Part shown: one piece after another, positions 1 to 22,835 of the stretch | How the letters are laid out: each line of letters starts with the position of its first letter | Position numbering within the stretch: the first letter of the stretch is position 1 | Virus record (IMG/VR): IMGVR_UViG_3300008450_000418 | Span: 1 to 24,895 of that record | Reading direction: 5' to 3' (one strand) | Origin: a virus | Length of the DNA: 24,895 bases | Made by a program: the position numbers and the translations under genes | Notes under the pieces: generated by a model | Database searches by the model: none | What the model was told of the DNA's origin: nothing | Seen by the model: only the letters and a program-made list of their open reading frames with translations

Positions 1-501
1 TTTGTTGGTGGTGTAGCAATTGTACACGTAGGTGGATTTACTGAATCTGAAATGCGTGAGAAAAAAGACCGTGTTGATGATGCTTTACAAGCTACTAAAG
101 CTGCTCTTGAAGAAGGTATCGTACCAGGTGGTGGAGCTGCTTTATTACATGCTCGTGAACATATTGATAGAATTAATATTGGATCTGATATCGTTTATAA
201 AGCCTGTGGTGCACCGTTTAAGAAAATTTTAACAAATGCTGGTATTGATCAGGAATATATTTACCATGCTGTAAATGAGATTAGAACCGCTGAATATTGG
301 ACTGGTTATAATCTAAAATCAGATGAATTTGTAGATATGAAAGAAGCAGGTATTATTGATCCAGCTAAAGTAACTCGTACAGCACTTGAAAATGCAGTAT
401 CAGTAGCCGGAACCGTATTATTGACAGAAGCTGTTGTAGTTGACAAACCCGAAGAAAAGAAAGATGACGGTGGGTTTGGAGATATGATGGGAATGATGTA
501 A
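1..501 (+). CDS. groEL: GroEL chaperonin (60 kDa), C-terminal part, 5' end outside window
   Basis: This is the last 166 residues of a group I chaperonin, which folds proteins inside an ATP-driven double ring. The reading frame is open from base 1, so the gene begins upstream; the first internal ATG at 52 is not the real start. Conserved GroEL pieces are visible in order: GGVAIVHVGG, then SEMREKKDRVDDALQATKAA, the PGGGAALL turn of the ATPase domain, a GYNLKSDEFVDM segment, GIIDPAKVTRTALENA and SVAG. The protein ends in a short Gly/Met tail (GGFGDMMGMM), as cellular GroELs do. No truncation or frameshift is seen in this part. The next gene starts 10 bases after the stop, with its own promoter overlapping the end of this gene. 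Its closeness to T4-type replication genes implies a phage-borne chaperonin, probably for folding virion proteins. Identity is near certain; its presence in a phage rests on the neighbours. Confidence 0.95.
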   Translation, partial: FVGGVAIVHVGGFTESEMREKKDRVDDALQATKAALEEGIVPGGGAALLHAREHIDRINIGSDIVYKACGAPFKKILTNAGIDQEYIYHAVNEIRTAEYWTGYNLKSDEFVDMKEAGIIDPAKVTRTALENAVSVAGTVLLTEAVVVDKPEEKKDDGGFGDMMGMM

Positions 502-506
502 ATTCA
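475..506 (+). promoter_or_regulatory. Bacteroidota-type promoter overlapping the end of groEL
   Basis: TTTGG lies at 475-479 inside the groEL Gly/Met tail and TAAATTCA at 499-506, with 20 bases between TTG and TA, the same geometry as the other copies in this window. The -7-like box overlaps the groEL stop codon. The next ATG (512) is only 13 bases from the T of the box, so the transcript would be leaderless or nearly so. Confidence 0.5.
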
Positions 507-511
507 CAATT

Positions 512-712
512 ATGCAAGATGCAGTAAGTCTTATAGGTAAAATGATTTCTATTGGGGAAATGAATTATACTATTGTTAAAGTATTTTTTGTCCCGGATGC
601 TGTTAGTGAACATCATGATTTATATTTTGGTTTACAAAAAGCAGATAAAGTAGTAATAAATTATTCCTATAAGGCTTTACTGCCTTATTTTAAAGAACAA
701 ATTAAGTTATGA
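512..712 (+). CDS. Small protein of unknown function (66 aa)
   Basis: I do not recognise this protein. It is 66 residues with no signal peptide, membrane segment or metal-binding cysteines. The alternation of hydrophobic and polar residues (around MNYTIVKVFFVP and KVVINYSYKALLPYF) suggests a small beta-rich fold. The start at 512 is the first ATG after groEL and lies 13 bases from a promoter-like box. The stop overlaps the next start as ATGA (709-712), which supports the frame and suggests translational coupling. It heads the run leading into the clamp loader genes, so an early or middle replication-region gene is plausible, but nothing in the sequence gives a role. Confidence 0.65.
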   Translation: MQDAVSLIGKMISIGEMNYTIVKVFFVPDAVSEHHDLYFGLQKADKVVINYSYKALLPYFKEQIKL

Positions 713-969
713 GCAAAACAGAAATCCAAGAAAAATTAATTGAAATCGCTTACCGTGTACCTCCAGGAGATAATTGGAAGGTAAGTAATGTTAACGAAGT
801 TCAAAAATCTATAACAGATGCTTTAGAAGCATGGTATCAGATGGCTACACTTAAACCTAAAGCTTTCCGATTGAATTTGGAAGAAGGTAAATTGTATGCT
901 ATATTACCACAAGAAGTAGAAATTAAAGAACCAGAACCAAAACGTTACAATATCTATGGCGATTATTAA
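709..969 (+). CDS. Protein of unknown function upstream of the clamp loader (86 aa)
   Basis: This 86-residue soluble protein is not recognised. The N-terminal half looks helical (IQEKLIEIAYRV, then SITDALEAWYQMATL) and the C-terminal third is acidic and extended (EVEIKEPEPKRY). It begins in an ATGA overlap with the preceding gene, preceded by AATTAAGTT, the A-rich GTT context seen before many starts here. Its end overlaps the clamp loader start by 14 bases (956-969), so the two genes are probably co-transcribed and coupled. The position suggests a replication-associated accessory gene, which is inference from context only. Confidence 0.7.
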   Translation: MSKTEIQEKLIEIAYRVPPGDNWKVSNVNEVQKSITDALEAWYQMATLKPKAFRLNLEEGKLYAILPQEVEIKEPEPKRYNIYGDY

Positions 970-1894
970 AGAACATACTATATTTGTAGAAAAATATAGA
1001 CCCAAAACACTCGACACTTATATTTGTGATGATCAGATTCGTGAAAAAATTCAAGAATTCATCACCAATCAAGACATCCCCCATTTAGGTTTCTTCGGCC
1101 TACAAGGTTCAGGTAAATCTACTTTAGCTAAAATATTAGTTAATAGTATTGATTGTGATTTTATTTATCTAAATGCCACTGAAAATAGAGGTATGGACGA
1201 TATTAAAGAAAAAGTTGGTTCATTTGCTTCTGCTCGTGGTTTTAAACCTTTGAAAATTGTTATTTTGGATGAATCAACTCACATTCTACAAGCATCCCAA
1301 GTATTGCTTTTGAATATGATTGAAACATATAGTTTAACTACTAGGTTTATTTTGACAGGTAACTATCCTGAAAGATTAATTCCACCACTTAGAAGTAGAT
1401 TACAAGAGTTTAAATTAACTCCTCCATCTAAAAAGGTAGTTGCTAAACATGTTTATGAGATCCTAAATCAGGAAAATATTGAGTTTAAATTAGAAGATTT
1501 AGCTGCAATAGTAAATAGTTCATATCCTGATTTTAGAAAAATTATTAACGATTGTCAGAAATATATTGTTGATAGTAAACTTACATTACCTACTACTTTG
1601 GGTAAAAATGAAAATGTTCAAAGTAAAATATTAGATGAATTAAAGAAACCATCTAATAAAACATTTAATAATATTAGACAAATTATCGCAGACAACGATG
1701 TTTCTTCATTTGAAGACGTTTATAAACACCTATATGAGTGTACAAACGAATATGCTGTTGGTTGTGAGGGTCAAATAGCAGTTATTATAAATGAATGTCT
1801 TTATCAATCTAATTTTAGAGTTGATTTAGAAATTAATTTTATGTCAGCTATCTCCAGAATTATTGAAACTTTAAAACTAAATAAAAGAATATGA
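956..1894 (+). CDS. 44: Sliding-clamp loader large subunit, T4 gp44-like AAA+ ATPase
   Basis: This AAA+ ATPase (312 aa; T4 gp44 is about 320) would form the ATP-driven part of the clamp loader that places the ring-shaped processivity clamp on primed DNA. The RFC/gp44 N-terminal motif VEKYRPKTL is at 11-19, the Walker A loop GLQGSGKST at 48-56 (one residue differs from the common GxxGxGK form only in the x positions), Walker B VILDEST at 102-108, sensor 1 LTGN at 133-136 and the arginine-finger SRx motif (RSRLQ) at 146-150. The helical lid and collar region fill the rest. It overlaps the upstream gene by 14 bases and the downstream gene by an ATGA. With the gp62-like gene at 2114 it forms the phage 44/62 pair, although here a small gene lies between the two. 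The family call is firm. Confidence 0.9.
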   Translation: MAIIKEHTIFVEKYRPKTLDTYICDDQIREKIQEFITNQDIPHLGFFGLQGSGKSTLAKILVNSIDCDFIYLNATENRGMDDIKEKVGSFASARGFKPLKIVILDESTHILQASQVLLLNMIETYSLTTRFILTGNYPERLIPPLRSRLQEFKLTPPSKKVVAKHVYEILNQENIEFKLEDLAAIVNSSYPDFRKIINDCQKYIVDSKLTLPTTLGKNENVQSKILDELKKPSNKTFNNIRQIIADNDVSSFEDVYKHLYECTNEYAVGCEGQIAVIINECLYQSNFRVDLEINFMSAISRIIETLKLNKRI

Positions 1895-3755: not shown

Positions 3756-3773
3756 GGAATCCCGATATATTTA
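3741..3773 (+). promoter_or_regulatory. Bacteroidota-type promoter ahead of the RHH gene and glycan island
   Basis: TTTGG at 3741-3745 and TATATTTA at 3766-3773 are separated by 21 bases (TTG to TA), one more than in the other copies. The -33-like box lies in the end of the nuclease gene, whose stop is in the spacer. It would transcribe the RHH-like gene at 3797 and, as I see no similar site at later gene boundaries up to about 16 kb, possibly the whole glycan island. Confidence 0.5.
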
Positions 3774-3796
3774 TATATAACAAATTAATAAAAGCT

Positions 3797-4002: not shown

Positions 4003-5442
4003 ATGAAAGATAAATTTGGTTATTTGCCTCCTGAGCAAAGGAAAAAGATCTTGCTTATTTGTGATGACATTAGAGTTCATTCAGGTATAGCAACAGTTGC
4101 AAGAGAAATTGTAATTCAAACAGCACACCATTTTAAATGGGTTAATATGGCAGGAGCCATTTCACATCCCGAAAAAGGTAGAAAATTAGACTTGTGTGAA
4201 GACACTAACAATAATGCTGGGATTAAGGATTCTTATGTTATGGCTTATCCTGTTGATGGATATGGAGATCCTAATATTTTAAGACAAATCATTCAAATAG
4301 AACAACCAGATGCAATTATGTTGATTACAGATCCACGTTATTTTGTATGGTTATTCCAAATTGAAAATGAAATACGTAAACAAATTCCTATTACTTATTT
4401 AAATATTTGGGATGACTACCCTGCTCCTTTATACAACAAACCATATTATGAGGCTTGTGATTTATTGATGGGTATTTCTAAACAAACAGTTAATATTAAT
4501 AAATTAGTATTAGGTGAAAAAGCCGATAGTAGAATTATTGAATATGTTCCTCATGGATTAAATGATGAAATATTCCAACCTATGGATAAAAATCATCCTG
4601 AAATAGTTTCATTAAAAAAGCATATTTTTGGAAAATCCAATCCCGAATTTATTGTTTTCTTTAATTCAAGAAATATTCGCCGTAAACAAATTCCAGACAC
4701 ATTAATGGCCTTTAGATTATTTTTAGATAAATTACCTAAAGAACAAGCTAAAAAATGTGCCTTAATGCTTCATACGGAACACGTTAGTGAACATGGTACT
4801 GATTTACCGGCAGTAATTGATTTGTTTTTTGGGGAAGAATATTCTAACAACATATTCTTTACTAATTTAAGAGCAAGCGCTCAACAAATGAGTTATCTTT
4901 ATAATATGTCTGATGCTCAAATCTTATTAACATCTAATGAAGGTTGGGGATTAAGTTTAACAGAAGCTATGTTGTGTGGTTTACCAATTATTGCTAACGT
5001 AACAGGTGGTATGCAAGATCAAATGCGTTTTGAATTTGAAGATGGTACTTGGATTGATTTTGATGAAAACTTTCCTTCAAACCATAGAGGTACATACAAA
5101 AAACATGGTAAATGGGCATTTCCAGTATATCCTACCTCTCGTTCAATTGTAGGTTCTCCTCCAACCCCTTACATCTTTGATGATAGATGCGAACCAGAAG
5201 ATGCTGCGGATCAGATTATGACTATTTATCAAATGGATTCTGAAACCCGTAAAGAAACAGGTCTAGCAGGTAGACAATGGGCTGTAAGTGATGAAGCCGG
5301 ATTTACTTCAGTACACCAAGCTAACCGTGTTATTAAATGTTTCGATAAATTATTTGAAACATGGACTCCTAGAAAAAACTATGAGTTAATTAATGCTACT
5401 ACTCATAAAAAAAGAACTTTAAATCATAAATTAATCTATTAA
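4003..5442 (+). CDS. Glycosyltransferase, GT4-type (GT-B fold), 479 aa
   Basis: This protein would transfer a sugar from a nucleotide-sugar donor. The N-terminal Rossmann-like half begins KKILLICDDIRVHSGIATVA (14-33) with the Gly-rich acceptor-side loop. The C-terminal donor domain has NSRNIRRKQIPDTLMAF (221-237), the usual start of the GT4 donor half, then SNEGWGLSLTEAMLCGLPII (311-330) with the E-x7-E pair E313/E321 that contacts the donor nucleotide sugar. It is long for the family; an insertion near 345-390 (about the KKHGKWAFPVYP segment) and a C-terminal extension account for this. It starts 11 bases after the RHH gene and overlaps the next gene by one base (TAATG). Donor and acceptor are unknown. 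Confidence 0.88.
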   Translation: MKDKFGYLPPEQRKKILLICDDIRVHSGIATVAREIVIQTAHHFKWVNMAGAISHPEKGRKLDLCEDTNNNAGIKDSYVMAYPVDGYGDPNILRQIIQIEQPDAIMLITDPRYFVWLFQIENEIRKQIPITYLNIWDDYPAPLYNKPYYEACDLLMGISKQTVNINKLVLGEKADSRIIEYVPHGLNDEIFQPMDKNHPEIVSLKKHIFGKSNPEFIVFFNSRNIRRKQIPDTLMAFRLFLDKLPKEQAKKCALMLHTEHVSEHGTDLPAVIDLFFGEEYSNNIFFTNLRASAQQMSYLYNMSDAQILLTSNEGWGLSLTEAMLCGLPIIANVTGGMQDQMRFEFEDGTWIDFDENFPSNHRGTYKKHGKWAFPVYPTSRSIVGSPPTPYIFDDRCEPEDAADQIMTIYQMDSETRKETGLAGRQWAVSDEAGFTSVHQANRVIKCFDKLFETWTPRKNYELINATTHKKRTLNHKLIY

Positions 5443-6758
5443 TGAAACCGTTATTTGTAATAAGTTGTCCTATTGATACCTATAGTGGGTATGGAGCACG
5501 TTCTCGTGATTTGGTTAAATCAATTATTGAACTTGATAAGTATGATGTAAAAATTTTACCTCAAAGATGGGGTGATTGTCCTTGGGGATTTATTAACGAT
5601 AATCCTGAATGGAAGTTTTTAGAACAACATTTTTTACTTACCCCACAGTTACCAAAACAACCCGAAATTTGGGCTCAATTAACTGTTCCTAATGAATTCC
5701 AACCTATTGGAAAGTTTAATATTGGTTTTACAGCTGGTATTGAAACAACAGTAGCTATCCCTGAGTGGATTGAGGGATGTAATAGAATGAACTTAGTTAT
5801 TGTTTCTTCTAATCACTCAGCAGAAGTATTTAAAAATAGCAAATTTGAAAAAGTAAATGAACAAACTAAACAAAAAGAAGGTGTTCTGCAATTAGAAAAA
5901 CCTATTGAAGTATTGTTTGAAGGAGCAGATTTAACTAAATACTTTGAGATGGTTGATGAAGAGTTACCTGATAGTGATTTAGTATGTGATTTAGATGTAC
6001 TTCCTGAATCATTTGCTTATCTATTTGTAGGTCACTGGATGCAAGGGGATTTAGGTGAGGATAGAAAAAATGTTGGTTTATTAGTAAAAGCATTTTTAGA
6101 GGTATTTAAAAACAAAAGAAATGCTCCTGCATTAATTATGAAATCCTCAGGTGCTGGTTCATCTTATTTAGATAGAGAAACTATTCTTCACAAAATAAGA
6201 CAAATTAAAGATACAGTTGAGGCTCAAACTTTACCTAACATTTACTTGTTACATGGTGAATTTACAGATGAGGAAATGAATCATTTGTATAATCACCCTA
6301 AAGTAAAAGCTATGGTTAGTTTAACTAAAGGTGAAGGTTTTGGTCGTCCATTACTTGAATTTAGTTTAGTTAAAAAACCAATTATAGCTACAAACTGGTC
6401 AGGCCATATGGATTTTTTAAATCCAGAATTTATTTATCCAATTAATGGTACTTTGACTAATGTACATCCAAGTACAGCAAATCAATTCTTAATACAAGAT
6501 GCTCAATGGTTTTCTCCTAATCAACCAGAGGTAGGAACATCACTAAAAGATGTATTTGAAAACTATAAAAAGTACATTGATGGAGCAAAACGTCAAACAT
6601 TCAGAAGTAAAACAATGTTTAATTTTGATAAAATGAAAGAATTAATTGGTAATTATTTAACCCAATATGTTCCTGAATTCCCTAAAGAGATTAAACTTGA
6701 ATTACCTAAATTGAAAAAAATCGAATTACCTAAAAAAATTGAAATAAAAAATGGATAA
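5442..6758 (+). CDS. Glycosyltransferase, GT4-type (GT-B fold), 438 aa with a short C-terminal repeat
   Basis: A second GT-B glycosyltransferase. The N-terminus has PIDTYSGYGARSRDLVKSI with the glycine loop (about 10-28). The donor half has VGHWMQGDLGEDRKNVGLLV (196-215) and TKGEGFGRPLLEFSLVKKPI (295-314), in which E298 and E306 are the E-x7-E pair. After the fold ends, residues 412-435 are three 8-residue units (EFPKEIKL, ELPKLKKI, ELPKKIEI) that form a charged tail. The start overlaps the previous stop (TAATG), and the end overlaps the zinc-ribbon gene by 8 bases. It differs enough from the gene at 4003 that recent duplication is unlikely. Substrate unknown. Confidence 0.88.
   Translation: MKPLFVISCPIDTYSGYGARSRDLVKSIIELDKYDVKILPQRWGDCPWGFINDNPEWKFLEQHFLLTPQLPKQPEIWAQLTVPNEFQPIGKFNIGFTAGIETTVAIPEWIEGCNRMNLVIVSSNHSAEVFKNSKFEKVNEQTKQKEGVLQLEKPIEVLFEGADLTKYFEMVDEELPDSDLVCDLDVLPESFAYLFVGHWMQGDLGEDRKNVGLLVKAFLEVFKNKRNAPALIMKSSGAGSSYLDRETILHKIRQIKDTVEAQTLPNIYLLHGEFTDEEMNHLYNHPKVKAMVSLTKGEGFGRPLLEFSLVKKPIIATNWSGHMDFLNPEFIYPINGTLTNVHPSTANQFLIQDAQWFSPNQPEVGTSLKDVFENYKKYIDGAKRQTFRSKTMFNFDKMKELIGNYLTQYVPEFPKEIKLELPKLKKIELPKKIEIKNG
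6675..6746 (+). repeat. Three 24-bp tandem repeats in the end of the second GT4 gene
   Basis: GAATT(C/A)CCTAAA recurs at 6675, 6699 and 6723, an exact period of 24 bases, in frame. It encodes three 8-residue units of the form E(L/F)PKxxxx. The later half of each unit has diverged, with A-rich sequence. Confidence 0.75.
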
Positions 6759-7206
6759 TTTAACAATATGCCCTCGTTGTGGTTCAGATGCTTGTTATGT
6801 TGATGAAGTAAATGCTGATATCAAAACATATTTTTGTTATGGGTGTGGTTTCCAAACTAACTCTTTAATGAAAGAAGGTGAAACTTTTTATGAAGAACAA
6901 ATTGAAACCTTACCTGAATTGTATAAAGATTTACTTTATACAGATGAAGATGGGAAAAAATGGATGCCATCAGCAATTAATTTACCTCAACAAGGTATGA
7001 TATTTGCTAATGGAAATAATTCAGAAAACTGGATGTGGAGTGCTGTTAAAGCAGTTCCAGTACTAGAGGAAGAAAAAACCAAATACCCAATTCCAGGCCA
7101 ACCAGGTAAATATTATGAATGGAGAATGGATATGACTACAATATCTCATTTCCCTGAACGTGATTATATGGAAGCTCTTTCATACATTGGGGTATTACCA
7201 GAATGA
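6751..7206 (+). CDS. Zinc-ribbon protein of unknown function (151 aa)
   Basis: The N-terminus carries two cysteine knuckles, CPRC (7-10) and CYGC (29-32), spaced as in a zinc ribbon; C15 is an extra cysteine. The remainder, from about 45, is rich in aromatic and acidic residues (SENWMWSAVKAVPV, YYEWRMD, SHFPERDYMEAL) and I do not recognise it. It lies inside the glycan operon, overlapping the GT4 gene by 8 bases and the GT2 gene by an ATGA, so it probably serves the same process, perhaps as a carrier or partner of the glycosyltransferases, but that is inference. The zinc site is clear, the function is not. Confidence 0.75.
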   Translation: MDNLTICPRCGSDACYVDEVNADIKTYFCYGCGFQTNSLMKEGETFYEEQIETLPELYKDLLYTDEDGKKWMPSAINLPQQGMIFANGNNSENWMWSAVKAVPVLEEEKTKYPIPGQPGKYYEWRMDMTTISHFPERDYMEALSYIGVLPE

Positions 7207-7811
7207 TTAGTTTAGCAATTACCGTTTGCAATGAAGTAAAGGAATTAGAAGCTCTGTTGGAACATTTAGAAGACAGAGCTTTAGCTCCTAATTATGAAAT
7301 AGTCATCCAGATTGATCAAGATAACTATACTGAAGATGTATTGAGTGTTATTATTGGAAAAGGAATTAAACATTGGTTTTATCCCCTTAATAAAGATTTT
7401 GCATCATATAAAAATGAATTGAAAAAACATTGTCAAGGTGAATTTATTTTCCAAATAGATGCAGATGAATTGATTGCTCCTGAAATGTTAGAATTACTTC
7501 CTCAAATTATTGAGGCTAACCCCGAAGTTGATCTATATTATGTTCCTAGAATTAATACCGTAAGTGGTATCACCCAAGAACATATACAGAAATGGGGTTG
7601 GAGATATGAAAACAACCGAGTTAATTGGCCTGATTATCAGACTAGAATTTATAGAAATTCCCCTGATGTTAAATGGAGAAATGCAGTTCATGAGGTAATT
7701 GAAGGACATAAATATTTTACAGTATTACCAGCAGTAGATGAGTTAGCTTTAATTCATCCAAAGTCAATAGAAAAACAAGAAATACAAAACCAGTTTTATG
7801 AAACGTTATGA
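7203..7811 (+). CDS. Glycosyltransferase family 2 (GT-A fold), 202 aa
   Basis: This is a compact GT2-type enzyme. It begins MISLAITVCNEVKELEALLE, the usual first strand and helix of the family, and has FQIDADELIAPEM at 83-95, in which D86-A-D88 is the DxD metal- and nucleotide-sugar-binding motif. A possible late catalytic region is at WPDYQTRIYRN and KWRNAVHEVIEG (about 140-170), the pattern seen in GT2 enzymes related to LPS core beta-glucosyltransferases. At 202 residues it is near the minimum for a complete GT-A domain. ATGA overlaps on both sides place it in the same operon as its neighbours. Sugar specificity cannot be read. Confidence 0.82.
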   Translation: MISLAITVCNEVKELEALLEHLEDRALAPNYEIVIQIDQDNYTEDVLSVIIGKGIKHWFYPLNKDFASYKNELKKHCQGEFIFQIDADELIAPEMLELLPQIIEANPEVDLYYVPRINTVSGITQEHIQKWGWRYENNRVNWPDYQTRIYRNSPDVKWRNAVHEVIEGHKYFTVLPAVDELALIHPKSIEKQEIQNQFYETL

Positions 7812-8620
7812 AAATAAAAGCAGCTCATTTTGATAGTAAAAATTTTGAAAATAAGCTCCAACATTTATCCCATTTAGATTTTTCATTATTTGTAGAAACA
7901 GCTCCCCAATCACAAGAGGAATTATCCTCAATCAATATTATTTCATTCCAGGAACCAAATGAATATTTTGGTTTACATGATTGGACTATTCAAAATAAAG
8001 ATTTATTTGATATTATTTTAACTCAAAGTGATAGAGTATTAAATAATTGTGAAAATGCTGTTTTTCAACCATTTGGACATACCTGGTTAAAACCAGACCA
8101 ATATGAAAAAGACCATAATAAAACATTTCAATTATCCCATTTACAAGGTAAATTACTTAAAACTTATGGTCATTCTTTAAGACATCAAGTAACTGCTCGT
8201 AAAAATGAATTCAATATACCTACTAAGTTCTATGAAACCTATGGTGATAGAAACAATATTGAGGATGCTCGTTTAGGTAAAGAATTTATATTTGGTGACT
8301 CACAATTTGGAGTAGTAATTGAAAATGTTTCATATCGAGGGTATTTTTCTGAAAAAATATTGGATTGTTTTTTATTGAAGACAATTCCGATTTATTGGGG
8401 ATGTTCAAATATAGGAGATTATTTTGATATAGACGGTATAATAACGTTTAATAACGTAGATGATTTGGTTTACATAACCAATCAACTAAATGAAAGTTAT
8501 TACGAAAATAGAAAAGAAATAATTGATAAAAATTGGAAATTGGCCTTAGATTACGTAAATTACGAACAAAATATAGTTAACACAATCACAAACATTTTTA
8601 AACATAATAATATTATATGA
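7808..8620 (+). CDS. GT10-like (fucosyltransferase-type) glycosyltransferase, 270 aa
   Basis: The C-terminal half has the GT10 donor-binding signature: FGVVIENVSYRGYFSEKILD (167-186), where E172-N173 and the SEK triad (181-183) match the 'ENS...Y.TEK' pattern of alpha-1,3-fucosyltransferases, followed by LLKTIPIYWGCSNIGDYFD (189-207), which matches 'GTIPIYWG.pNI..yF'. The N-terminal 120 residues are the less conserved acceptor half. GT10 enzymes use GDP-fucose or similar; here the donor could be another deoxy sugar, perhaps made by the next genes. It starts and ends in ATGA overlaps. The family assignment is good, the substrate is unknown. Confidence 0.78.
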   Translation: MKIKAAHFDSKNFENKLQHLSHLDFSLFVETAPQSQEELSSINIISFQEPNEYFGLHDWTIQNKDLFDIILTQSDRVLNNCENAVFQPFGHTWLKPDQYEKDHNKTFQLSHLQGKLLKTYGHSLRHQVTARKNEFNIPTKFYETYGDRNNIEDARLGKEFIFGDSQFGVVIENVSYRGYFSEKILDCFLLKTIPIYWGCSNIGDYFDIDGIITFNNVDDLVYITNQLNESYYENRKEIIDKNWKLALDYVNYEQNIVNTITNIFKHNNII

Positions 8621-9759
8621 AAAAAGTATGGTACGCTCCTTATAAGTTTGAATCTTATGGAGAAGAAGAAATTAAAGCCGTAGAAGAAGCCCTACGCTCT
8701 GGATGGTTAGGTGGACAGGGCCCTAAATCAGTAGAATTTGAAGAAAAAATTGCTAAACGTTTTGGAAAGAAATTTGGTGTATTTGTTAACTCAGGTTCAT
8801 CAGCTTGTTTATTAGCAATTGCTGCTTTGGATTTGCCTAAAGGAAGTAAAATTATTACTCCTGCTTGTACATTTTCAACTACATTAGCCCCAATTTTACA
8901 ACTTGGTTACAAACCAAAATTTGTAGATGTAGGTTTAACAGATTATGTAGCGGATATTGATCAAGTAGTAGCAGCTATTACTCCTGATGTAAAAGCAATT
9001 ATGTTACCTAATTTAATTGGTAACAAACCAGATTGGAAACGTTTACGTCAAGAAATTAAATTGTTAGGTAGAACTGATATTATTTTGATTGAGGATTCAG
9101 CTGATACAATTACTGAAACATTAGAAACAGATGTAGCAACAACTAGTTTTTATGCCTCACACGTAATTACAGCCGGTGGTGTTGGTGGTATGGTAATGTT
9201 TAATGATAAAAAACACGTTACTAAGTGTCTACAATACAGAGACTGGGGTCGTTTGGGTGATGATTCGGAAATTATGGATGATCGCTTTAATCACAATGTA
9301 GACGGTATTCCTTACGACCATAAATTTTTATATAGTGTATTAGGTTACCACATGAAAGCTTGTGAAATGAATGCTGCTTTTGGATTAGTTCAATTGCACC
9401 GTTTTGAAAAATTCTCACAAATTAGAAGAGAAAATATTGAACGTTACATTGAAAATCTTCAAGGTGTAGGTGACTTAATTCTACCAGATGATTCAATCCA
9501 ACCAAATTGGTTAGCTATTCCTCTACAAACAGAAAAACGTTTTGAATTACTTAATTTCTTAGAAGATAATAATATTCAAACTCGTGTAACATTTGCTGGT
9601 AACGTAACTCGTCACCCTGCTTATAGAGAATTTTTACAAGATTTCCAGAATGCAGATACTATTATGAAAAATGGTTTCTTGTTAGGTGCACACCACGGAA
9701 TGACTGTTGAGGATGTAGATTACGTTTGTGATAAAATTAAAGAATTTTTTAGTAAATAA
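8617..9759 (+). CDS. DegT-family sugar 3-dehydratase (E1/RfbH/ColD type) with His in place of the PLP lysine
   Basis: This 380-residue vitamin-B6 enzyme has the DegT/DnrJ/EryC1 fold: YGEEEIKAVEEALRSGWLGG (14-33), the cofactor phosphate site NSGSSACLLA (58-67), IEDSAD with D160 at the pyridine ring (158-163), and SFYASHVITAG (177-187). In aminotransferases of this family the residue five after that serine is the Schiff-base lysine; here it is His182. That swap is the mark of the 3-dehydratases E1 (CDP-4-keto-6-deoxyglucose 3-dehydrase, RfbH) and ColD, which remove the C3 hydroxyl in 3,6-dideoxysugar synthesis. TRVTFAGNVTRHP (322-334) also resembles the E1-type 'TR..FAGN..RQP' segment. The clustered iron-sulfur cysteines of E1 are absent (only C204, C249 and C371 in the C-terminal half), so it may be closer to ColD in mechanism. 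One extra residue lies in the glycine loop (AGGVGG). It begins in an ATGA overlap; the next gene follows three bases later. Confidence 0.85.
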   Translation: MKKVWYAPYKFESYGEEEIKAVEEALRSGWLGGQGPKSVEFEEKIAKRFGKKFGVFVNSGSSACLLAIAALDLPKGSKIITPACTFSTTLAPILQLGYKPKFVDVGLTDYVADIDQVVAAITPDVKAIMLPNLIGNKPDWKRLRQEIKLLGRTDIILIEDSADTITETLETDVATTSFYASHVITAGGVGGMVMFNDKKHVTKCLQYRDWGRLGDDSEIMDDRFNHNVDGIPYDHKFLYSVLGYHMKACEMNAAFGLVQLHRFEKFSQIRRENIERYIENLQGVGDLILPDDSIQPNWLAIPLQTEKRFELLNFLEDNNIQTRVTFAGNVTRHPAYREFLQDFQNADTIMKNGFLLGAHHGMTVEDVDYVCDKIKEFFSK

Positions 9760-9762
9760 ATT

Positions 9763-13230: not shown

Positions 13231-14597
13231 TAGATAAAAAATATTGTAATATAGGAGAAATTCTATATAAAAGCTCAACAGACAAAAACACAACTCATAG
13301 ATATGGAATCAGTTATGATTTAGTATTTAATTCCCAGTATCTAAAACAAAATCGTCCTTTAAAAATTTTAGAAATAGGAGTAAGTTTGTTTGGTGATGGA
13401 AGTGTAGGACCTTTATCTGAAATAGATTATATAGAAAAATATGTGGGTTTAGATATTACACCTTATGAAGGACTATATCCTAATGAAAAAATTACCATAT
13501 ATGCTGGTCCTGAATATGATGCTTATAAATCAGAAATGATTGATATGTTATTGGAAAAAGAAGGTAAATTTGATATTATTATTGATGATGGACCTCATAC
13601 TTGGGAATCTCAAAAGTGGTTTTTTGAAAATTATTATAATTTATTAAATGAAGATGGTGTTTTACTATGTGAAGATATTCATGGACAACATTATAATGAA
13701 TTACAAAAATTAGCTAAAAAATTAAAGTTATATATTTTAGATTTAAGAGCCAATAATAATCCTAATGGGGATGAAATTATAGCTCTTAGATATAAAACAC
13801 CTTTAAAGAAAAACGCTGTAGTTATTCCGGTTTATAATTCATTACAAGAGAATGAACAATATAATAAATGTATATCTACCTGGAAGTTTTATTGTGAGAA
13901 ACACAATATAGAACTTCATTTGATAGAAGGCGATAAATACTTTAAAGACTTTCCTGATTATGCCGCTATGTGTTTTGATAGATGGACAGATATAAATTTC
14001 CCTGTTTCAGAATATAATAGAATCACTTTTGTAGATGCTGATACCCTTGTAAGATGGGATCTACCAGATATAAATGAAATATTTGATGAAAATGGGTTAG
14101 ATATAGTAGTAGTAAATGACCAAGGAGGATCACATATTGCTCAATATCACACTAATCAATGGTTAGGATTTAAACCTAATGCTTTAGATGTTGTAAAAAA
14201 TTATTTTAACGCTGGTTTTGTTTCATTTAAATCTCATCATTTATTTAGGTTACAACAACAAATAAAATCATATAAAGATTACTATTATAACTTTAAAGAT
14301 ATTGAAGGTCATGTTAAAGGTATAGGAATAGAAGGTGGAGTAAGAATAGATGCAATGGACCAAACAGCTGTTAATATAGCTTTACAAGAATTATTTCCTC
14401 ATAATATTTCATTTGTGCAAAAAGAATTTAATTGTCAAGTACCTTATTTATTTAAGGGTGATGAAGATTTTAAAAATAGTTACTCTAGCTTTGAATTTTT
14501 AAATGAGGGTTATATATTCCACTTAGGTTCTAGTACATTAGCTTATACCAATTTAGTAAATGAATTTTGGGAAGATTTTAAAGAAAATTATAAATGA
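13227..14597 (+). CDS. Fused class I methyltransferase and DxD glycosyltransferase (456 aa)
   Basis: Two domains share one frame. Residues 1-190 are a SAM-dependent methyltransferase: HRYGISYDLVF, motif I ILEIGVSLFGDGS (47-59), an acidic GLD after the second strand (74-76), FDIIIDDGPHTWESQ (115-129) and DGVLLCEDIHG (143-153), most like the macrocin-O-methyltransferase (TylF) type. Residues 195-456 are a GT-A domain like GT8: AVVIPVYNSLQENEQY, then ITFVDADTLVRWDLPD (266-281) with D270-A-D272 as the DxD metal site, AGFVSFKSHH, DAMDQTAVNIAL and a final FHLGSST histidine that could bind metal. The product could methylate and extend the same glycan. ATGA overlaps at both ends give a single clean frame. 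The order of action and the substrates are unknown. Confidence 0.8.
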   Translation: MIDKKYCNIGEILYKSSTDKNTTHRYGISYDLVFNSQYLKQNRPLKILEIGVSLFGDGSVGPLSEIDYIEKYVGLDITPYEGLYPNEKITIYAGPEYDAYKSEMIDMLLEKEGKFDIIIDDGPHTWESQKWFFENYYNLLNEDGVLLCEDIHGQHYNELQKLAKKLKLYILDLRANNNPNGDEIIALRYKTPLKKNAVVIPVYNSLQENEQYNKCISTWKFYCEKHNIELHLIEGDKYFKDFPDYAAMCFDRWTDINFPVSEYNRITFVDADTLVRWDLPDINEIFDENGLDIVVVNDQGGSHIAQYHTNQWLGFKPNALDVVKNYFNAGFVSFKSHHLFRLQQQIKSYKDYYYNFKDIEGHVKGIGIEGGVRIDAMDQTAVNIALQELFPHNISFVQKEFNCQVPYLFKGDEDFKNSYSSFEFLNEGYIFHLGSSTLAYTNLVNEFWEDFKENYK

Positions 14598-15508
14598 TAT
14601 CATTAATTATACCAACCAATAAAACTAACTCTAATTATACAAAACATATTGTAAGTAATATTAGAGAAATTTATCCTGATGAAACCCAAGTAGAAATTAT
14701 AGTATCTGAAGATGATACTGTAACTATGGGAGTTAATTATAATAATGCTGTTGCCAAAGCTAATGGTGAAAAAATTATCCTATTACATAACGATATGGTT
14801 ATTAAACCTGGATTTGTGGAACAAATGGATAAAGATATAACCAAAAATAGAATAACAGCATATACCCGAGTTGAACCCCCTATTTACCCTAATACATTCC
14901 CAGGAAAAGTAATTTTAGATTGTGGTGATAATTTAGATAATTTTAATCATTTGAAATTTTTAAATTTTAAAATTGAAGACACTACTTTACTTGATGGCGG
15001 AGCTCAAATGTTTTTTGGTTGTATGAAAGAAGATTATTTAGGTATTGATGGATATACTTTTAAATTGTTTTGTGAAGATGATGATCTACATTTAAGACAT
15101 AACATAGCAGGTTATGAACAAAAAGTTAGCTCAGCTCATGTTTATCATTTTGTTAGCAAAACCTCCAGATCAGGTGATTATCAAGAAATAGAAAACCAAT
15201 CCAATATTAATTTTATTAAAAAATGGGGATTTAGAAATTCTATATATAATGTTGTTTATAATAAAAAACTTATAGTTAATGATGATATTAATGGGTTAAA
15301 AAATCAGTTAGATATTTGGTTTAATGGTGGAGATGATGTAATTGTGGAGATTGATGGTAAATTATTTACTCAACAAGATTATATTTATATCCAACAACTT
15401 AATGATATTGTAAAAGATAATGATGAATTAGGTACTTTTGAATTAGGTAATTTAAAAATTACAGTAAATAGTTTAACTGAGCATCAAAATAAATTAATAA
15501 AAATATGA
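14594..15508 (+). CDS. Glycosyltransferase family 2 (GT-A fold), 304 aa, last of the glycan island
   Basis: The N-terminus is GT2-like: MISLIIPTNKTNSNYTKHIV, VEIIVSEDDTVTMGVNYNNA and ANGEKIILLHNDMVIKPGF (56-74). The metal-binding loop reads H65-N66-D67, a common variant of DxD in GT2. A later CEDDDLHLRH segment (about 155-164) fits the catalytic 'ED' region. From about residue 230 there is a 70-residue C-terminal extension I cannot place (for example GGDDVIVEIDGKLFTQQDY). It overlaps the methyltransferase-glycosyltransferase gene (ATGA) and the small gene at 15505 (ATGA). It is the last recognisable glycan gene in the operon. Confidence 0.82.
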   Translation: MISLIIPTNKTNSNYTKHIVSNIREIYPDETQVEIIVSEDDTVTMGVNYNNAVAKANGEKIILLHNDMVIKPGFVEQMDKDITKNRITAYTRVEPPIYPNTFPGKVILDCGDNLDNFNHLKFLNFKIEDTTLLDGGAQMFFGCMKEDYLGIDGYTFKLFCEDDDLHLRHNIAGYEQKVSSAHVYHFVSKTSRSGDYQEIENQSNINFIKKWGFRNSIYNVVYNKKLIVNDDINGLKNQLDIWFNGGDDVIVEIDGKLFTQQDYIYIQQLNDIVKDNDELGTFELGNLKITVNSLTEHQNKLIKI

Positions 15509-16065: not shown

Positions 16066-16350
16066 ATGAATTGTATTAAATGCGGAGAAGAAATACCTGC
16101 AGGTAGATTAAAAGCCTTACCCGGAGCAAAAACATGTGTTAATTGTTCTGGTGTACAGAAAAAAGGTGTAGTTACAATAATGAAGGGTGAGGGAGATCAT
16201 ACTTGGATTGAAACTATTCATTTAGATCATGAGGATTATGTTAAGTATATGGAAGCAGAAAAGAAAATTAAGTTTCCAACTGAATTAGATCCCCTAGATG
16301 ATTCAGATATACATCACAAATCTAGTAAAACTAAATTAGAGGAGGAATAA
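16066..16350 (+). CDS. DksA/TraR-type C4 zinc-finger protein (94 aa)
   Basis: The N-terminus is the DksA/TraR zinc finger: C3 and C6 in CIKCGEEIP, then RLKALPGAKTC with C24, and C27. In DksA/TraR proteins this finger sits at the base of a coiled coil that enters the RNA polymerase secondary channel. Here the finger is N-terminal and the preceding coiled coil is missing, so an effect on RNA polymerase is not assured. The rest is acidic with a histidine-rich patch (GDHTWIETIHLDHEDYV). It ends in TAATG overlap with the HNH-like gene (16350). Short proteins of this kind are common in phages, with unknown role. Confidence 0.75.
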   Translation: MNCIKCGEEIPAGRLKALPGAKTCVNCSGVQKKGVVTIMKGEGDHTWIETIHLDHEDYVKYMEAEKKIKFPTELDPLDDSDIHHKSSKTKLEEE

Positions 16351-16998: not shown

Positions 16999-17009
16999 TA
17001 TTTATAATA
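16999..17009 (+). promoter_or_regulatory. TATTTATAATA box 11 bases before a GTG start
   Basis: TATTTATAATA begins one base after the HNH-like gene's stop and ends directly at the GTG at 17010. The same 11-mer follows the stop of the gene at 19623 (20049-20059). Its placement suggests a -10-like element that gives a leaderless message. Confidence 0.35.
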
Positions 17010-17474: not shown

Positions 17475-17506
17475 TTTGGTCATCTAAAGGTCAATTATTA
17501 TATTGA
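17475..17506 (+). promoter_or_regulatory. Bacteroidota-type promoter ahead of the membrane/lysis pair
   Basis: TTTGG at 17475-17479 and TATATTGA at 17499-17506 are 20 bases apart (TTG to TA). The ATG at 17522 follows a 15-base stretch ending AAATAAGTT. GGTCA occurs twice (17478 and 17489) in the spacer, and an inverted repeat overlaps the -7 box, so this copy could also hold an operator. Confidence 0.55.
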
Positions 17507-17507
17507 C
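17490..17507 (+). repeat. Inverted repeat across the -7 box of the 17475 promoter
   Basis: GTCAAT (17490-17495) and ATTGAC (17502-17507) are perfect inverted copies around a TATTAT centre. The dyad overlaps the TATATTGA box, so it could be a repressor site or, in RNA read from upstream, a weak hairpin. Confidence 0.4.
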
Positions 17508-17521
17508 AACAAAAATAAGTT

Positions 17522-18564: not shown

Positions 18565-18702
18565 ATGAGTAAAACAAGTAACAATCAAAAATTGGAAGTT
18601 CTTAAAATTTGGTTAGATGATTTAAAGAAAAACCACAAAGTAAGAAAACAAAAACAAAGACAAGCATCTAAATGGATTGAAGAAATAGAAGATGAAGCCT
18701 AA
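18565..18702 (+). CDS. Small basic helical protein (45 aa), unknown function
   Basis: The 45-residue frame starts at an ATG preceded by TTAAAGTTT, the A-rich context used elsewhere, and ends overlapping the next gene by 11 bases. The product (containing KLEVLKIWLDDLKKNHKVR and KWIEEIEDEA) looks like one or two helices with a basic middle and an acidic end. No family is recognised. Support comes from the start context and the overlap. Confidence 0.6.
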   Translation: MSKTSNNQKLEVLKIWLDDLKKNHKVRKQKQRQASKWIEEIEDEA

Positions 18703-18856
18703 AGATCCAGCAGTAGAATTTTTTGATAGTATGCCTGATCAATTGCTGATAAAATTAGCAATGTATGATTGGATATCTCTATGTAAAATATGTACTGCAT
18801 TAGCTTTAGATTTACAATTACTTAAAGAAGAAATGGAGAGAGATTTGGGATCCTGA
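18692..18856 (+). CDS. Small helical protein (54 aa), unknown function
   Basis: The frame opens with ATG at 18692 inside the end of the previous gene and runs to 18856. The product begins MKPKDPAVEFFDSMPDQLLI and continues with an amphipathic helix including two cysteines (LCKICTALALDL) and an acidic end. It might be a small protein-binding or coiled-coil peptide. Its last codons overlap the stem-loop and promoter that precede the SWIM gene. No function is suggested. Confidence 0.6.
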   Translation: MKPKDPAVEFFDSMPDQLLIKLAMYDWISLCKICTALALDLQLLKEEMERDLGS

Positions 18857-18864
18857 ATCTCTCT
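18837..18864 (+). terminator. Stem-loop at the end of the 18692 gene
   Basis: AGAGAGATT (18837-18845) and AATCTCTCT (18856-18864) form a perfect 9-bp stem with a TGGGATCCTG loop. The stop codon of the upstream gene is in the 3' arm. It ends where the TTCGTATATTCA box starts, so it may terminate upstream transcripts while the promoter starts new ones. Confidence 0.5.
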
Positions 18865-18875
18865 TCGTATATTCA
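18844..18875 (+). promoter_or_regulatory. Bacteroidota-type promoter of the SWIM-domain gene
   Basis: TTTGG (18844-18848) and TATATTCA (18868-18875) are 20 bases apart. The leader from the -7 box to the ATG (18892) ends AATAAAGGTT, shared with the copies at 19572 and 20994. Confidence 0.65.
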
Positions 18876-18891
18876 CATCATAATAAAGGTT

Positions 18892-19571: not shown

Positions 19572-19603
19572 TTTGGAATCTTAAAGAATGATTCGTATAT
19601 TCA
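19572..19603 (+). promoter_or_regulatory. Bacteroidota-type promoter of the 19623 gene
   Basis: TTTGG (19572-19576) and TATATTCA (19596-19603) are 20 bases apart, directly after the stop of the previous gene. GAATC (19576-19580) and GATTC (19590-19594) form a short dyad in the spacer. The leader to the ATG at 19623 ends AATAAAGGTT. Confidence 0.65.
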
Positions 19604-19622
19604 TGTCATAATAATAAAGGTT

Positions 19623-20048: not shown

Positions 20049-20059
20049 TATTTATAATA
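20049..20059 (+). promoter_or_regulatory. TATTTATAATA box before the 20067 gene
   Basis: The same 11-mer as at 16999 directly follows the stop of the upstream gene; the ATG is 18 bases from its first T. TTTGG at 20023-20027 would give a 22-base spacing to it, so it may be a variant of either promoter class. Confidence 0.4.
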
Positions 20060-20066: not shown

Positions 20067-20795
20067 ATGGCAACACGTGCATTAATTGGATATTTGGATA
20101 CAGATGGTGATACCAAATTAACAACTACATATAACCACTACGATGGTTATCCTCAAAATTTAGGTAAAGGATTAAACGATTTTTATAGTAGTGATGCTAA
20201 AGCAGAAGAAATTGCTAATGTAGGATATATTTCATTTTTAGATGGTGAAACCGGTGAATGGGACGCTAAAAACAAATCAACAGCTGATGTAGTTCAACTA
20301 CCTGATAATTTCAATGAAGCTATGATGACAATAGCTGAAGAAATTGATAAAATAGGTGCTGATTATGGCTACATTTGGGATAATGAAAATGAGGAATGGA
20401 TTACTGTTAAAAACAATGGTATTGGAAAAATGGCCGAAGATTTAGAAATGAATTTAGCTCATTTAAAAGGTAAATTCGATATGATGCCTGAACGACCTGA
20501 ACAAACTATGGAAAATAAAGATAAAATTAAAGAAGGAACTTGGTCAGTATTACCTAATCGTATTCCTGAATTCATCAAAGCAATGGAAAATATTAAAGAA
20601 GAATTCCATAGTGTAGTAGGAGATGATACAGTTTACAATCACTTAGATGCCGCTATTGAAGCCGCTCAAGATTTAATGTCAATGGGTTCAGCACCTGAAA
20701 TCCCAGGATTTGAAGGTACTAAAGCAGCATTAGATAATTTATTTGAAGAACAATTTGTTCGCCAAATGAAATACAGAGCAGGTATTATTAAATAA
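20067..20795 (+). CDS. Conserved phage-type protein of unknown function (242 aa)
   Basis: The N-terminus MATRALIGYLDTDGD..., with TTTYNHYDGYPQNLGKGLND, follows a pattern I know from phage and plasmid proteins (ALIG...DG...Y.H.DGYP...G..L...Y). Function is not established to my knowledge. The rest is acidic and mostly helical, with FNEAMMTIAEEIDKIGADYG, an aspartate-rich IWDNENEEWITVKNNG strand pair, and FIKAMENIKEEFHSVVGDDT further on. No catalytic motif is evident. It is the largest of the accessory genes between 18.4 and 22 kb. It is followed by a palindrome and a terminator-like hairpin. Confidence 0.75.
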   Translation: MATRALIGYLDTDGDTKLTTTYNHYDGYPQNLGKGLNDFYSSDAKAEEIANVGYISFLDGETGEWDAKNKSTADVVQLPDNFNEAMMTIAEEIDKIGADYGYIWDNENEEWITVKNNGIGKMAEDLEMNLAHLKGKFDMMPERPEQTMENKDKIKEGTWSVLPNRIPEFIKAMENIKEEFHSVVGDDTVYNHLDAAIEAAQDLMSMGSAPEIPGFEGTKAALDNLFEEQFVRQMKYRAGIIK

Positions 20796-20816: not shown

Positions 20817-20845
20817 AAAGGGATTTGGCTTTGTCGGATCCCTTT
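20817..20845 (+). terminator. Stem-loop terminator between 20067 and 20860 genes
   Basis: AAAGGGATTTGG and TCGGATCCCTTT pair over 12 positions (three G-U) around a CTTTG loop. The 3' arm ends where CGTATATTTCC begins. The 5' arm contains the TTTGG of the promoter. Confidence 0.55.
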
Positions 20846-20855
20846 CGTATATTTC
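20824..20855 (+). promoter_or_regulatory. Bacteroidota-type promoter of the 20860 gene, short leader
   Basis: TTTGG (20824-20828) and TATATTTC (20848-20855) are 20 bases apart. The ATG at 20860 is only 12 bases from the T of the -7 box, so the message would be leaderless or nearly so, unlike the neighbouring copies. Confidence 0.6.
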
Positions 20856-20859
20856 CAAC

Positions 20860-21006
20860 ATGATGAAAGAGCAAGACGAAAATCAATTCAACGGTTTATC
20901 AAGAGGTCAAGTGAAACAAATCATTAGACGTAACATGGTTACCCGTGTCAAAGCCAGTAAAAAGGTTTATGACAGAAAAAAAGAAAGAAAAAATTTGGAA
21001 TTTTAA
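20860..21006 (+). CDS. Small basic protein (48 aa), unknown function
   Basis: The open frame reaches back to an ATG at 20812, but that start lies before the hairpin and promoter, so I start at 20860 (a second ATG follows at 20863). The product begins MMKEQDENQFNGLSRGQVKQ and ends in a strongly basic helix (KASKKVYDRKKERKNLEF). The second half looks like an RNA- or DNA-binding helix. No family is recognised. The stop lies in the spacer of the next promoter. Confidence 0.6.
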   Translation: MMKEQDENQFNGLSRGQVKQIIRRNMVTRVKASKKVYDRKKERKNLEF

Positions 21007-21025
21007 GAAAAAGTTCGTATATTCA
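20994..21025 (+). promoter_or_regulatory. Bacteroidota-type promoter of the 21045 gene
   Basis: TTTGG (20994-20998) and TATATTCA (21018-21025) are 20 bases apart, and the TTTGG lies within the end of the previous gene. The leader to the ATG at 21045 ends AATAAAGGTT. Confidence 0.65.
20998..21016 (+). terminator. Hairpin in the spacer of the 20994 promoter
   Basis: GAATTTT (20998-21004) and AAAGTTC (21010-21016) pair over 7 positions (one G-U) around AAGAA. It fills the promoter spacer and includes the upstream stop codon. Weak as a terminator. Confidence 0.35.
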
Positions 21026-21044
21026 CGGTATAGAAATAAAGGTT

Positions 21045-21448: not shown

Positions 21449-21458
21449 GCAAGAGATT

Positions 21459-21769: not shown

Positions 21770-21958
21770 ATGACTAATGAAGAACTAATTGAAGAATTGT
21801 ACCATAAAGCTCATAAAAAAGGGTTTTTTAATGAGTTACACGAAAAAGTAAGCGAACTAAAACAAACAAAACAAATCAAATGTGGATATGAAATAGTTAG
21901 AGTAGCTTACGATGAACTTAAAAAAATTAAGCTTGCGCAACCATTCCCACACCTTTAA
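21770..21958 (+). CDS. Small helical protein (62 aa), unknown function
   Basis: The product begins MTNEELIEELYHKAHKKGFF and continues with ELHEKVSELKQTKQ and YEIVRVAYDELKKIKL, so it is a charged helical protein. The frame also opens at a TTG (21755), which would add five hydrophobic residues, but I prefer ATG at 21770 because it follows the TATTTAT box exactly and avoids overlap with the previous stop. No family is recognised. The gene ends just before the CGTATATACA stretch that precedes the SGNH hydrolase. Confidence 0.65.
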   Translation: MTNEELIEELYHKAHKKGFFNELHEKVSELKQTKQIKCGYEIVRVAYDELKKIKLAQPFPHL

Positions 21959-21962
21959 TCCG

Positions 21963-21970
21963 TATATACA
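21963..21970 (+). promoter_or_regulatory. Possible -7-type box of the SGNH hydrolase gene
   Basis: CGTATATACA resembles the CGTATATTCA box of the promoters nearby and is 10 bases from the ATG, but no TTTGG is found at 20 bases (nearest TTG is 27 away). Weak candidate. Confidence 0.3.
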
Positions 21971-21972
21971 AA

Positions 21973-22653
21973 ATGAAACTAAAAGATTATGTTATTTTAT
22001 TTGGTTGCTCACTACTTTTAGGTGGAACCATAGTAAACTCCCAAACGCTAAACCAACCACAAGACACTACACATTTGGATACACCAATTGTAGTCCCTGT
22101 TGTAAATCAATCCATAAACGTAAAGGGTAAAAAAGTACTGTTTATAGGCGACTCACATACTGCCAACAGACAAAACGGATGGCAAAAACAACTATCGGAG
22201 ATGGTTGGATTTGATTCCGATAATGTCTCGGTAGGTGGTAAAACCACTTATTGGATGTTGGAGATTGGCCTCTATAAGATTGATGACCGTTATGACTATG
22301 TGTTTGTATACGGAGGGGCAAACGATATGTATTCCACCAGCATTTCACCAAACGAGGCAATTGAAAATATTAAGGGAATTGCTCGAATGGCCAACAAACG
22401 AGGTGCACAATGTATTGTATTGACTGGGTTTGATCCGATTAAGTGTACTAGGACTCCGAATCCAAACTACGGACCAAAATATGCTTTGTTTCAGAAACTT
22501 TTGTTAACACAGGATTTGGATGGGGCCAAAGTAGTGGATATTAGGGTAGTGGATAGGGTTGATTGTTGGGATGGGTTGTGTCATATGGCTCCTTCTGGAC
22601 ATAAAAAGATTGCAGAAAAAATTGTGAAAGATTTGGGTTTTAAGAAAATCTAA
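21973..22653 (+). CDS. Exported SGNH/GDSL-type hydrolase (226 aa)
   Basis: This is a secreted or periplasmic esterase-like enzyme. An N-terminal signal segment (YVILFGCSLLLGGTIVNSQ) with C12 and a Pro/Thr-rich linker precede the domain. SGNH blocks follow: GDSHT at 59-63 with S61, VGGKT near 87-91 with the block II glycine, GGAND at 114-118 with N117, and DGLCHMAPSGHKKIA from 200 with D200 and H204 as the catalytic acid and base (one residue more between them than the usual DxxH). Members remove acetyl or acyl groups from sugars, so O-antigen or peptidoglycan deacetylation is plausible, given the glycan genes. Codon choice is richer in G and C (for example GGAGGGGCAAACG) than in the neighbours, which suggests later arrival. 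C12 could be a lipid anchor but its context is atypical. Confidence 0.82.
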   Translation: MKLKDYVILFGCSLLLGGTIVNSQTLNQPQDTTHLDTPIVVPVVNQSINVKGKKVLFIGDSHTANRQNGWQKQLSEMVGFDSDNVSVGGKTTYWMLEIGLYKIDDRYDYVFVYGGANDMYSTSISPNEAIENIKGIARMANKRGAQCIVLTGFDPIKCTRTPNPNYGPKYALFQKLLLTQDLDGAKVVDIRVVDRVDCWDGLCHMAPSGHKKIAEKIVKDLGFKKI

Positions 22654-22663
22654 CGTATATTCA
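22632..22663 (+). promoter_or_regulatory. Bacteroidota-type promoter of the 22680 gene
   Basis: TTTGG (22632-22636) and TATATTCA (22656-22663) are 20 bases apart, within and just after the end of the SGNH gene. The leader to the ATG at 22680 ends AATAAGAGTT. Confidence 0.65.
22633..22653 (+). terminator. Hairpin at the end of the SGNH gene
   Basis: TTGGGTTTT and AAAATCTAA pair over 9 positions (two G-U) around AAG, including the stop codon. It sits immediately before the CGTATATTCA box. Confidence 0.4.
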
Positions 22664-22679
22664 TAGGGTAATAAGAGTT

Positions 22680-22835
22680 ATGTTTACTTGGTGGTTTAAA
22701 GCAGGTATAGTTTTGATTTTAGGTTTGAGTACTAAAGGTGCTTTACAAACCAGAAAAGAAATTAGAAAAGGAAATATTCAATGGGTGGCTTGGAAAGGCC
22801 AATACGATTCATTATATTTAAGTAAGAGAAAATAA
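22680..22835 (+). CDS. Small membrane protein (51 aa)
   Basis: The 51-residue frame starts with ATG at 22680 after AATAAGAGTT. The N-terminus MFTWWFKAGIVLILGLSTKG is a hydrophobic segment, either a membrane anchor or an uncleaved signal, followed by a basic part (TRKEIRKGNIQWVAWKGQ). It is behind its own promoter and ends 5 bases before the next start. It is probably a small inner-membrane protein; the role is unknown. Confidence 0.65.
   Translation: MFTWWFKAGIVLILGLSTKGALQTRKEIRKGNIQWVAWKGQYDSLYLSKRK
22789..22820 (+). promoter_or_regulatory. Bacteroidota-type promoter inside the 22680 gene
   Basis: CTTGG (22789-22793) and TATATTTA (22813-22820) are 20 bases apart (TTG to TA). The ATG at 22841 follows 28 bases from the T, after AATAAGAGTT. 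Weaker than the others because the first T is C. Confidence 0.45.

Follow-up and report, generated by a model that had tools for sequence, protein, structure and literature searches.

A promoter-like element upstream of small genes, in places overlapping terminator-like hairpins, in a probable Bacteroidota phage and its relatives

The virus fragment IMGVR_UViG_3300008450_000418 (the window, i.e. the whole stretch analysed, 24,895 bases) has a G+C content of 30% and carries nearly every gene on the plus strand. Its products include the C-terminus of GroEL, clamp-loader subunits, a PD-(D/E)XK nuclease, glycan genes and numerous small open reading frames (ORFs), and a two-block element, TTTGG followed after 19 bases by TATATT, recurs at its gene boundaries. 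The best named relative of the nuclease is found in Flavobacterium phage vB_FspM_immuto (NC_055915; immuto in the following), which has the T4-type head genes gp20 and gp23 and is syntenic with the window for GroEL, the nuclease, two glycosyltransferases, a family-2 glycosyltransferase, an aminotransferase, an epimerase, a DksA-like protein, HNH and small ORFs. Because this relative and the gene order both point to immuto, a Bacteroidota host is likely for the window phage.

The original prediction grouped nine occurrences of the element into a single promoter set, to be checked by a matrix scan of both strands with a shuffled control and by comparison with related phages. All nine strings are present as written, with 19 bases between TTTGG (or CTTGG) and TA at eight sites and 20 at site 3741, i.e. 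20 and 21 bases from TTG to TA. The exact pattern TTTGG-N18..20-TATATT occurs eight times on the plus strand of the window and never on the minus strand, and the reversed control pattern is absent. Leave-one-out scoring found six strong sites and three weak ones (475, 3741 and 22789). A matrix trained on 252 non-redundant sites from other phages, with the window excluded, gave 17.4–34.1 bits for sites 17475, 18844, 19572, 20824, 20994, 22632 and 22789; its background was 0.05 hits per dinucleotide-shuffled window at 15 bits or more, and the minus strand of the window held nothing at 8 bits or more (best 7.7). With its spacing fixed at 19, this matrix is unable to score 3741 (spacing 20), and conservation provides an independent test. 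The boxes of all these sites except 22789 recur in orthologs; 22789 is the weakest, with a single ortholog, although CTTGG-N19-TATATT in relatives has its spacing peak at 19 as well. Relatives-only matrix and ortholog comparison therefore support a real promoter class at seven of the nine sites, as far as sequence can tell, and the single set does not extend to the other two. Site 475 reaches only 12.0 bits, level with hits at 20023 and 876, and is probably not a promoter: its TTTGG belongs to the codons for ‘GFG’ in GroEL, and indels disrupt its TAAATT box, at the stop codon, in L210, L212, L214 and L220, all close relatives. At 3741, TTTGG is not kept in orthologs, which differ in their −33 letters (GTAGG, GCAGG and others) but all have TATATTTATAT, and the equivalent place in immuto has the same box and no TTG; we thus rejected it as a member of the TTTGG-N19 class. 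Of the two further matrix hits, 876 was rejected as conserved coding sequence and 20023 because it sits on a late-type box.

The geometry of the class is rigid far beyond the window. In two sets of phage loci, picked by protein homology and not by the motif, the distance from TTTGG to TATATT peaks at 19 (166 occurrences against 0–13 at other gaps, and 87 against 0–9), with minus-strand counts near background; in immuto, TTG-N20-TATATT is found 39 times against 0–4 at other gaps. Hundreds of phage contigs share this sharp peak of the TTG-N20-TATATT class, and since related loci are not independent, it matters that clustering below 65% identity still leaves 260 sites. Across 84,980 bacterial and archaeal species, the genomic matches listed had a flat spacing and came from unrelated taxa. 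Sites in phages lie at a median of 23 nt upstream of an ORF start. The immuto sites share with those of the window the spacing, the location among small ORFs in a syntenic genome and a subset fused to hairpins, but combine GTTG[CG] with TATATTTAGG where the window class has TTTGG with TATATTCA. Sigma-70 promoters consist of TTGACA, 17 bases and TATAAT, and the corresponding distance of 20 bases from TTG to the TA of the −10 box is that of seven window sites. Thus, a fixed and strand-specific geometry upstream of genes, recurring in immuto, speaks for promoters as predicted, but the primary-sigma consensus to which they had been assigned does not fit them.

This misfit bears on which sigma factor may act here. 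In Flavobacterium johnsoniae promoters, T-12, A-11, T-8, T-7, T-6 and G-5 are nearly invariant and the −33 element is ‘much less evident’ (PMC6847099), with TAnnTTTG at −12 to −5 in agreement in F. psychrophilum (PMC9723704). Phage sites share with these promoters of the primary sigma factor (sigma-ABfr) a TTG block (T/CTTGG at seven window sites) and TA..TT at −12, −11, −8 and −7, the latter four positions being required by the search itself. They lack, however, the near-invariant T-6 and G-5 of TAnnTTTG: in a set not selected by the motif, −5 is A in 91 of 121 sites (75%) and G in 4 (3%), and in immuto it is A in 43 and G in 2 of 57, so that the predicted match to the host box fails at this position. 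Strict TTGG, a rigid 20 bases from TTG to TA and a conserved CG before TATATT also set the phage class apart. In Kordia and Elizabethkingia, upstream regions have no TTG-N20-TATATT peak, and neither TATATTTA/TATATTCA nor TTG-N20 is enriched upstream of genes; TATATTTG or TAnnTTTG is sense-biased there and TATATTTA unbiased, whereas upstream of phage genes TATATTTA has a strong sense bias (15 v 1, 17 v 2, 59 v 12). When TTTG-N-TAnnTTTG was sought throughout six bacterial genomes, the result was too noisy, with counts mostly close to the reversed control. Together, the mismatch at −5 and a TATATTTA bias in phages but not in Kordia or Elizabethkingia weaken the host-sigma reading and make the class appear less host-like than had been assumed.

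Even so, the host primary sigma has about an even chance of being the factor at work, and that these are ordinary −33/−7 promoters read by the unmodified host holoenzyme is only slightly less probable. The nearest named relative infects Flavobacterium, TA at −12/−11 and TT at −8/−7 fit TAnnTTTG, and TTG stands at the expected −33 place. Moreover, immuto has no spacing peak for TTG-to-TAnnTTTG that might otherwise serve early genes; its earliest genes, which need the host enzyme, must therefore use the TTG-N20 class or an unseen one, and no other class is visible in its small-ORF region. Because the immuto annotation contains no convincing RNA polymerase gene, it is likely that the host core polymerase transcribes the class; to this extent the claim that host polymerase is implied is probably right, and the argument from the primary sigma is weakened. 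Besides the letters at −5 and the missing enrichment in Kordia and Elizabethkingia, the flat spacing in bacterial genomes, among the matches listed, also counts against recognition by the host sigma.

Clearly less probable, yet to be taken seriously, is that the acting sigma function is a phage factor; in a version with a slightly lower chance still, a sigma-2-like protein, an activator or a sigma-modifying protein would redirect the host core to what would then be a middle-type promoter class. Such a factor could explain both the departure from the host consensus at −5/−6 and the far stricter −33 block, and a candidate is at hand in a conserved protein of 235–270 amino acids (aa), annotated as hypothetical, which occurs in 10 of 15 phages searched (immuto gp118, NC_055915.1 78174-78872; also L445, L446, L447, L448 and L449). 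Its family was found only via Sigma70_r2. In a structural model of moderate confidence (mean predicted confidence, pLDDT, 72), residues 16–114 align to sigma domain 2 (best Z 10.2, root-mean-square deviation 2.4 over 91 residues), and nearly all rows of structure matches are sigma factors. PHROGs held no family matching it, and T4-type gp55, sought with one Pelagibacter-phage sequence as query, had no match in the relatives. The C-terminal helical domain alone (pLDDT 89) has no clear structural match, and the missing sigma-4 match there, though it speaks against this protein as the factor, is not evidence of absence; Sigma70_r4 gave only two sub-threshold matches in the phages (G001 and G006). 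Further points against a phage factor are that the class occupies the small-ORF region, where transcription is expected to begin, that Microcystis phage Mel-JY01 has the sigma-like gene yet few motif sites, and that a late role for the protein is at least as likely. Separately, G006 (L444:98-640) encodes an ECF-like sigma factor of 180 aa, in which region 2 is accompanied by a weak region 4.

A late role would fit a second box. Judged by its model, the sigma-like protein is a candidate for the late sigma factor in this group of phages, and site 3741 appears from its sequence to be a box of another, late type: TATTTATA, with no −33 block, also stands upstream of many virion genes of immuto, where the density of the TTG-N20 class drops from 13.5 per 10 kb in the small-ORF region to 1.0 per 10 kb in the virion region. 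Late promoters of T4 have a TATAAATA-like box without an upstream element and are read by a gp55-like sigma; the candidate box at 3768 and before immuto virion genes, together with an encoded sigma-2-like protein, may correspond to this arrangement. Early promoters of T4 and its relatives are read by host sigma-70, and the TTG-N20 class shares with them many near-identical copies before small genes, in a T4-like genome with a separate candidate late box that lacks an upstream element. It differs in belonging to a Bacteroidota-type phage, in being off the host consensus and in having some of its sites fused to hairpins.

These hairpins add a further layer. Structures of −11 kcal/mol or below over the −33 block and spacer occur at 11.2% of the 260 non-redundant sites, against 1.3% after shuffling and 1.6% in control windows nearby, and at 12 of 51 immuto sites (24%), against 0.2% of shuffles. 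The window has two such stable sense-strand hairpins, at 18844 and 20824. The 19 loci related to the one at 20824 all form a hairpin too (−14.9 to −20.4 kcal/mol), with differing stems. Among 15 sequences in one register, 94.4% of cells are paired, against 83.2% when shuffled, a percentage that leans upward because the subset was chosen for its shared register and the structure was taken from the window; the stronger part is the 23 two-sided changes against 8.6 when shuffled, with a clear drop when the partner is slid. This compensatory change concerns the 20824 hairpin. The sense strand is the more stable one in 41 of 49 strong hairpins, which fits RNA because G-U pairing predicts just this. 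In intrinsic terminators, about 6–8 U follow immediately upon the hairpin. The window sites reach no more than TTCGTATATT or CTTTCGTATATT; at least 6 T occur in some relatives and in immuto, and L406 presents a textbook terminator with the T-run as spacer (GTGGCCTCCATTTGGAGGTCACATTTTTTTTTCGTATATT). Like intrinsic (Rho-independent) terminators, these elements have a stable sense-strand hairpin, a covarying stem (at 20824), in part a U-rich run, and a position at gene ends, but here the bases of hairpin and run also serve as −33 block and spacer for the promoter that follows. By these features, the hairpins may function as terminators.

Gene-end position, sense-strand hairpins and conserved downstream bases would also suit an RNA-processing signal, with hairpin and TATATT forming a cleavage element in a long polycistronic transcript. 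We consider this improbable, since the two blocks stand at a fixed distance even at the majority of sites, where no stable hairpin forms, which fits DNA recognition by a sigma factor, and TTG-N20-TA is the geometry of sigma-70-family promoters. More improbable still is a DNA dyad for a MerR-type regulator: MerR-type promoters house an operator in a 19–20 bp spacer, and the 19 bp spacer here does carry inverted repeats, but a protein operator would keep its sequence and be strand-symmetric, whereas no conserved operator dyad was found in the spacer, stems vary by site and covary, registers differ and the sense strand is favoured. N4-type hairpin promoters for a virion polymerase were rejected: a hairpin is missing at most sites, the stems differ in register, and the immuto annotation includes no polymerase of this kind.

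Overall, with a probability that we put at about 0.72, the sites constitute a compact terminator–promoter module for early or middle genes, built on one promoter class and served by host core polymerase. From motif, spacing, strand bias, conservation, hairpin and covariation, i.e. the sequence-level evidence, we infer initiation, termination, timing and the acting sigma as follows. In a large T4-like phage of Bacteroidota, one class of promoter (T/CTTGG, 19 bases, TATATT, A-5) would precede single small genes and DNA-metabolism genes. Host core RNA polymerase would bind the two blocks, TTG and TATATT, which lie at the distance classical for the sigma-70 family, and would initiate some 12 bases downstream of the first T of TATATT. 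Where a transcript arrives from the upstream gene, its −33 block and spacer would at some boundaries form a hairpin with a U-rich stretch behind it, and the transcript would be released, so that the same stretch of some 35 bases may end one transcript and start the next. The second box, TATTTATA without a −33 block, would be a candidate for late virion genes, probably read with the phage-encoded sigma-2-like protein. Several observations weigh against this picture. Most sites have no strong hairpin (in the window, five of seven are weak, −2 to −8 kcal/mol), and the fused design is therefore not general; the U-rich run is short and broken after several hairpins (CTTTCGTATATT); and six relatives at 20824 have GGTGG in place of the −33 TTTGG while retaining the hairpin. 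The class lacks the host's near-invariant G-5, so that recognition of the sites by the host primary sigma itself is in doubt. Statistics of the late box are modest (TATTTATAA 13 times on the plus and 5 times on the minus strand of the virion region), and early timing of the TTG-N20 class is suggested only by gene position and by analogy with immuto.

Promoters of this kind are known; the consensus and its fusion to hairpins appear to be new, as far as the searched library shows. In the open-access literature, nothing on point was found for the motif, for phage terminator–promoter fusion or for early promoters of Flavobacterium phages, which does not imply absence from the literature. More tentatively, a large and mostly uncultivated group of T4-like Bacteroidota phages might possess its own promoter alphabet and a phage-encoded or modified sigma function, place terminator and promoter in the same bases and express small genes as separate transcription units. 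Little is known of how Bacteroidota phages are transcribed, and the promoters of their hosts do not follow the textbook rules. With a matrix that gives no minus-strand hits of at least 8 bits in the window, transcription units could be called in hundreds of contigs from uncultivated phages, the mismatch with the host box offers a simple test for phage-own sigma specificity, using immuto and its cultured host Flavobacterium sp. LMO8, and fused hairpin–promoter modules are compact candidate parts for Bacteroidota genetics.

Transcript starts, which the original prediction held to be predictable, can be given only on the assumption that TATATT occupies −12 to −7; on it, leaders would be 0–16 bases long (table 1). 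For the 20824 promoter, the predicted start coincides with the ATG of ORF 20860-21006; its mRNA may have no leader, unless translation begins at the following ATG, at 20863.

Table 1. Candidate promoters, late-type boxes and hairpins in the window; promoter scores are from the relatives-only matrix.
Feature	Position	Strand	Evidence	Predicted start	Gene start
Site 475, probably no promoter	475..508	+	12.0 bits; GroEL C-terminal codons and stop codon; box disrupted in relatives		
TATTTATA box, candidate late-type promoter	3768..3775	+	TATATTTATAT invariant in orthologs; same box before immuto virion genes; replaces 3741/3766		
TATTTATAA, candidate late-type box (weak)	16999..17007	+	pattern hit; kept in some orthologs only		
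Promoter TTTGG-N19-TATATTGACA	17475..17508	+	20.7 bits; −7 box kept in orthologs	~17511	17522
Terminator-like RNA hairpin	18835..18866	+	−18.8 kcal/mol; contains 18844 −33 block and spacer; overlaps end of ORF 18692-18856		
Promoter TTTGG-N19-TATATTCACA	18844..18877	+	29.9 bits; kept in L132, L140 (TACATT), L130, L030	~18880	18892
Promoter TTTGG-N19-TATATTCATG	19572..19605	+	30.3 bits; kept in L140, L101, L030, L137, L129	~19608	19623
TATTTATAA, candidate late-type box upstream of ORF 20067-20795	20049..20057	+	pattern hit; TAATATTTAT kept in most orthologs		
Covarying terminator-like RNA hairpin	20817..20845	+	−16.0 kcal/mol; overlaps 20824 promoter		
Promoter TTTGG-N19-TATATTTCCA	20824..20857	+	27.8 bits; orthologs	~20860	
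Promoter TTTGG-N19-TATATTCACG	20994..21027	+	34.1 bits (window maximum); kept in many loci	~21030	21045
Promoter TTTGG-N19-TATATTCATA	22632..22665	+	22.0 bits; kept in L132, L140; TACATT in L131	~22668	22680
Weaker promoter CTTGG-N19-TATATTTAAG	22789..22822	+	17.4 bits; one ortholog, L131	~22825	22841

Elsewhere in the window, positions 4003-15508 hold an 11-kb run of glycan genes, for glycosyltransferases, a DegT aminotransferase, a thiamine-diphosphate enzyme and an epimerase, partly syntenic with immuto. Directly before the promoter-rich small-ORF region, and at the equivalent place in immuto, lies a gene for a DksA/TraR-type zinc-finger protein (16066-16350), a possible modulator of host RNA polymerase. 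Between 17000 and 22900, AAAGGTTATG, AAGAGTTATG or similar sequences often stand before start codons; their GG is too near the ATG for a Shine-Dalgarno role, as expected of Bacteroidota.

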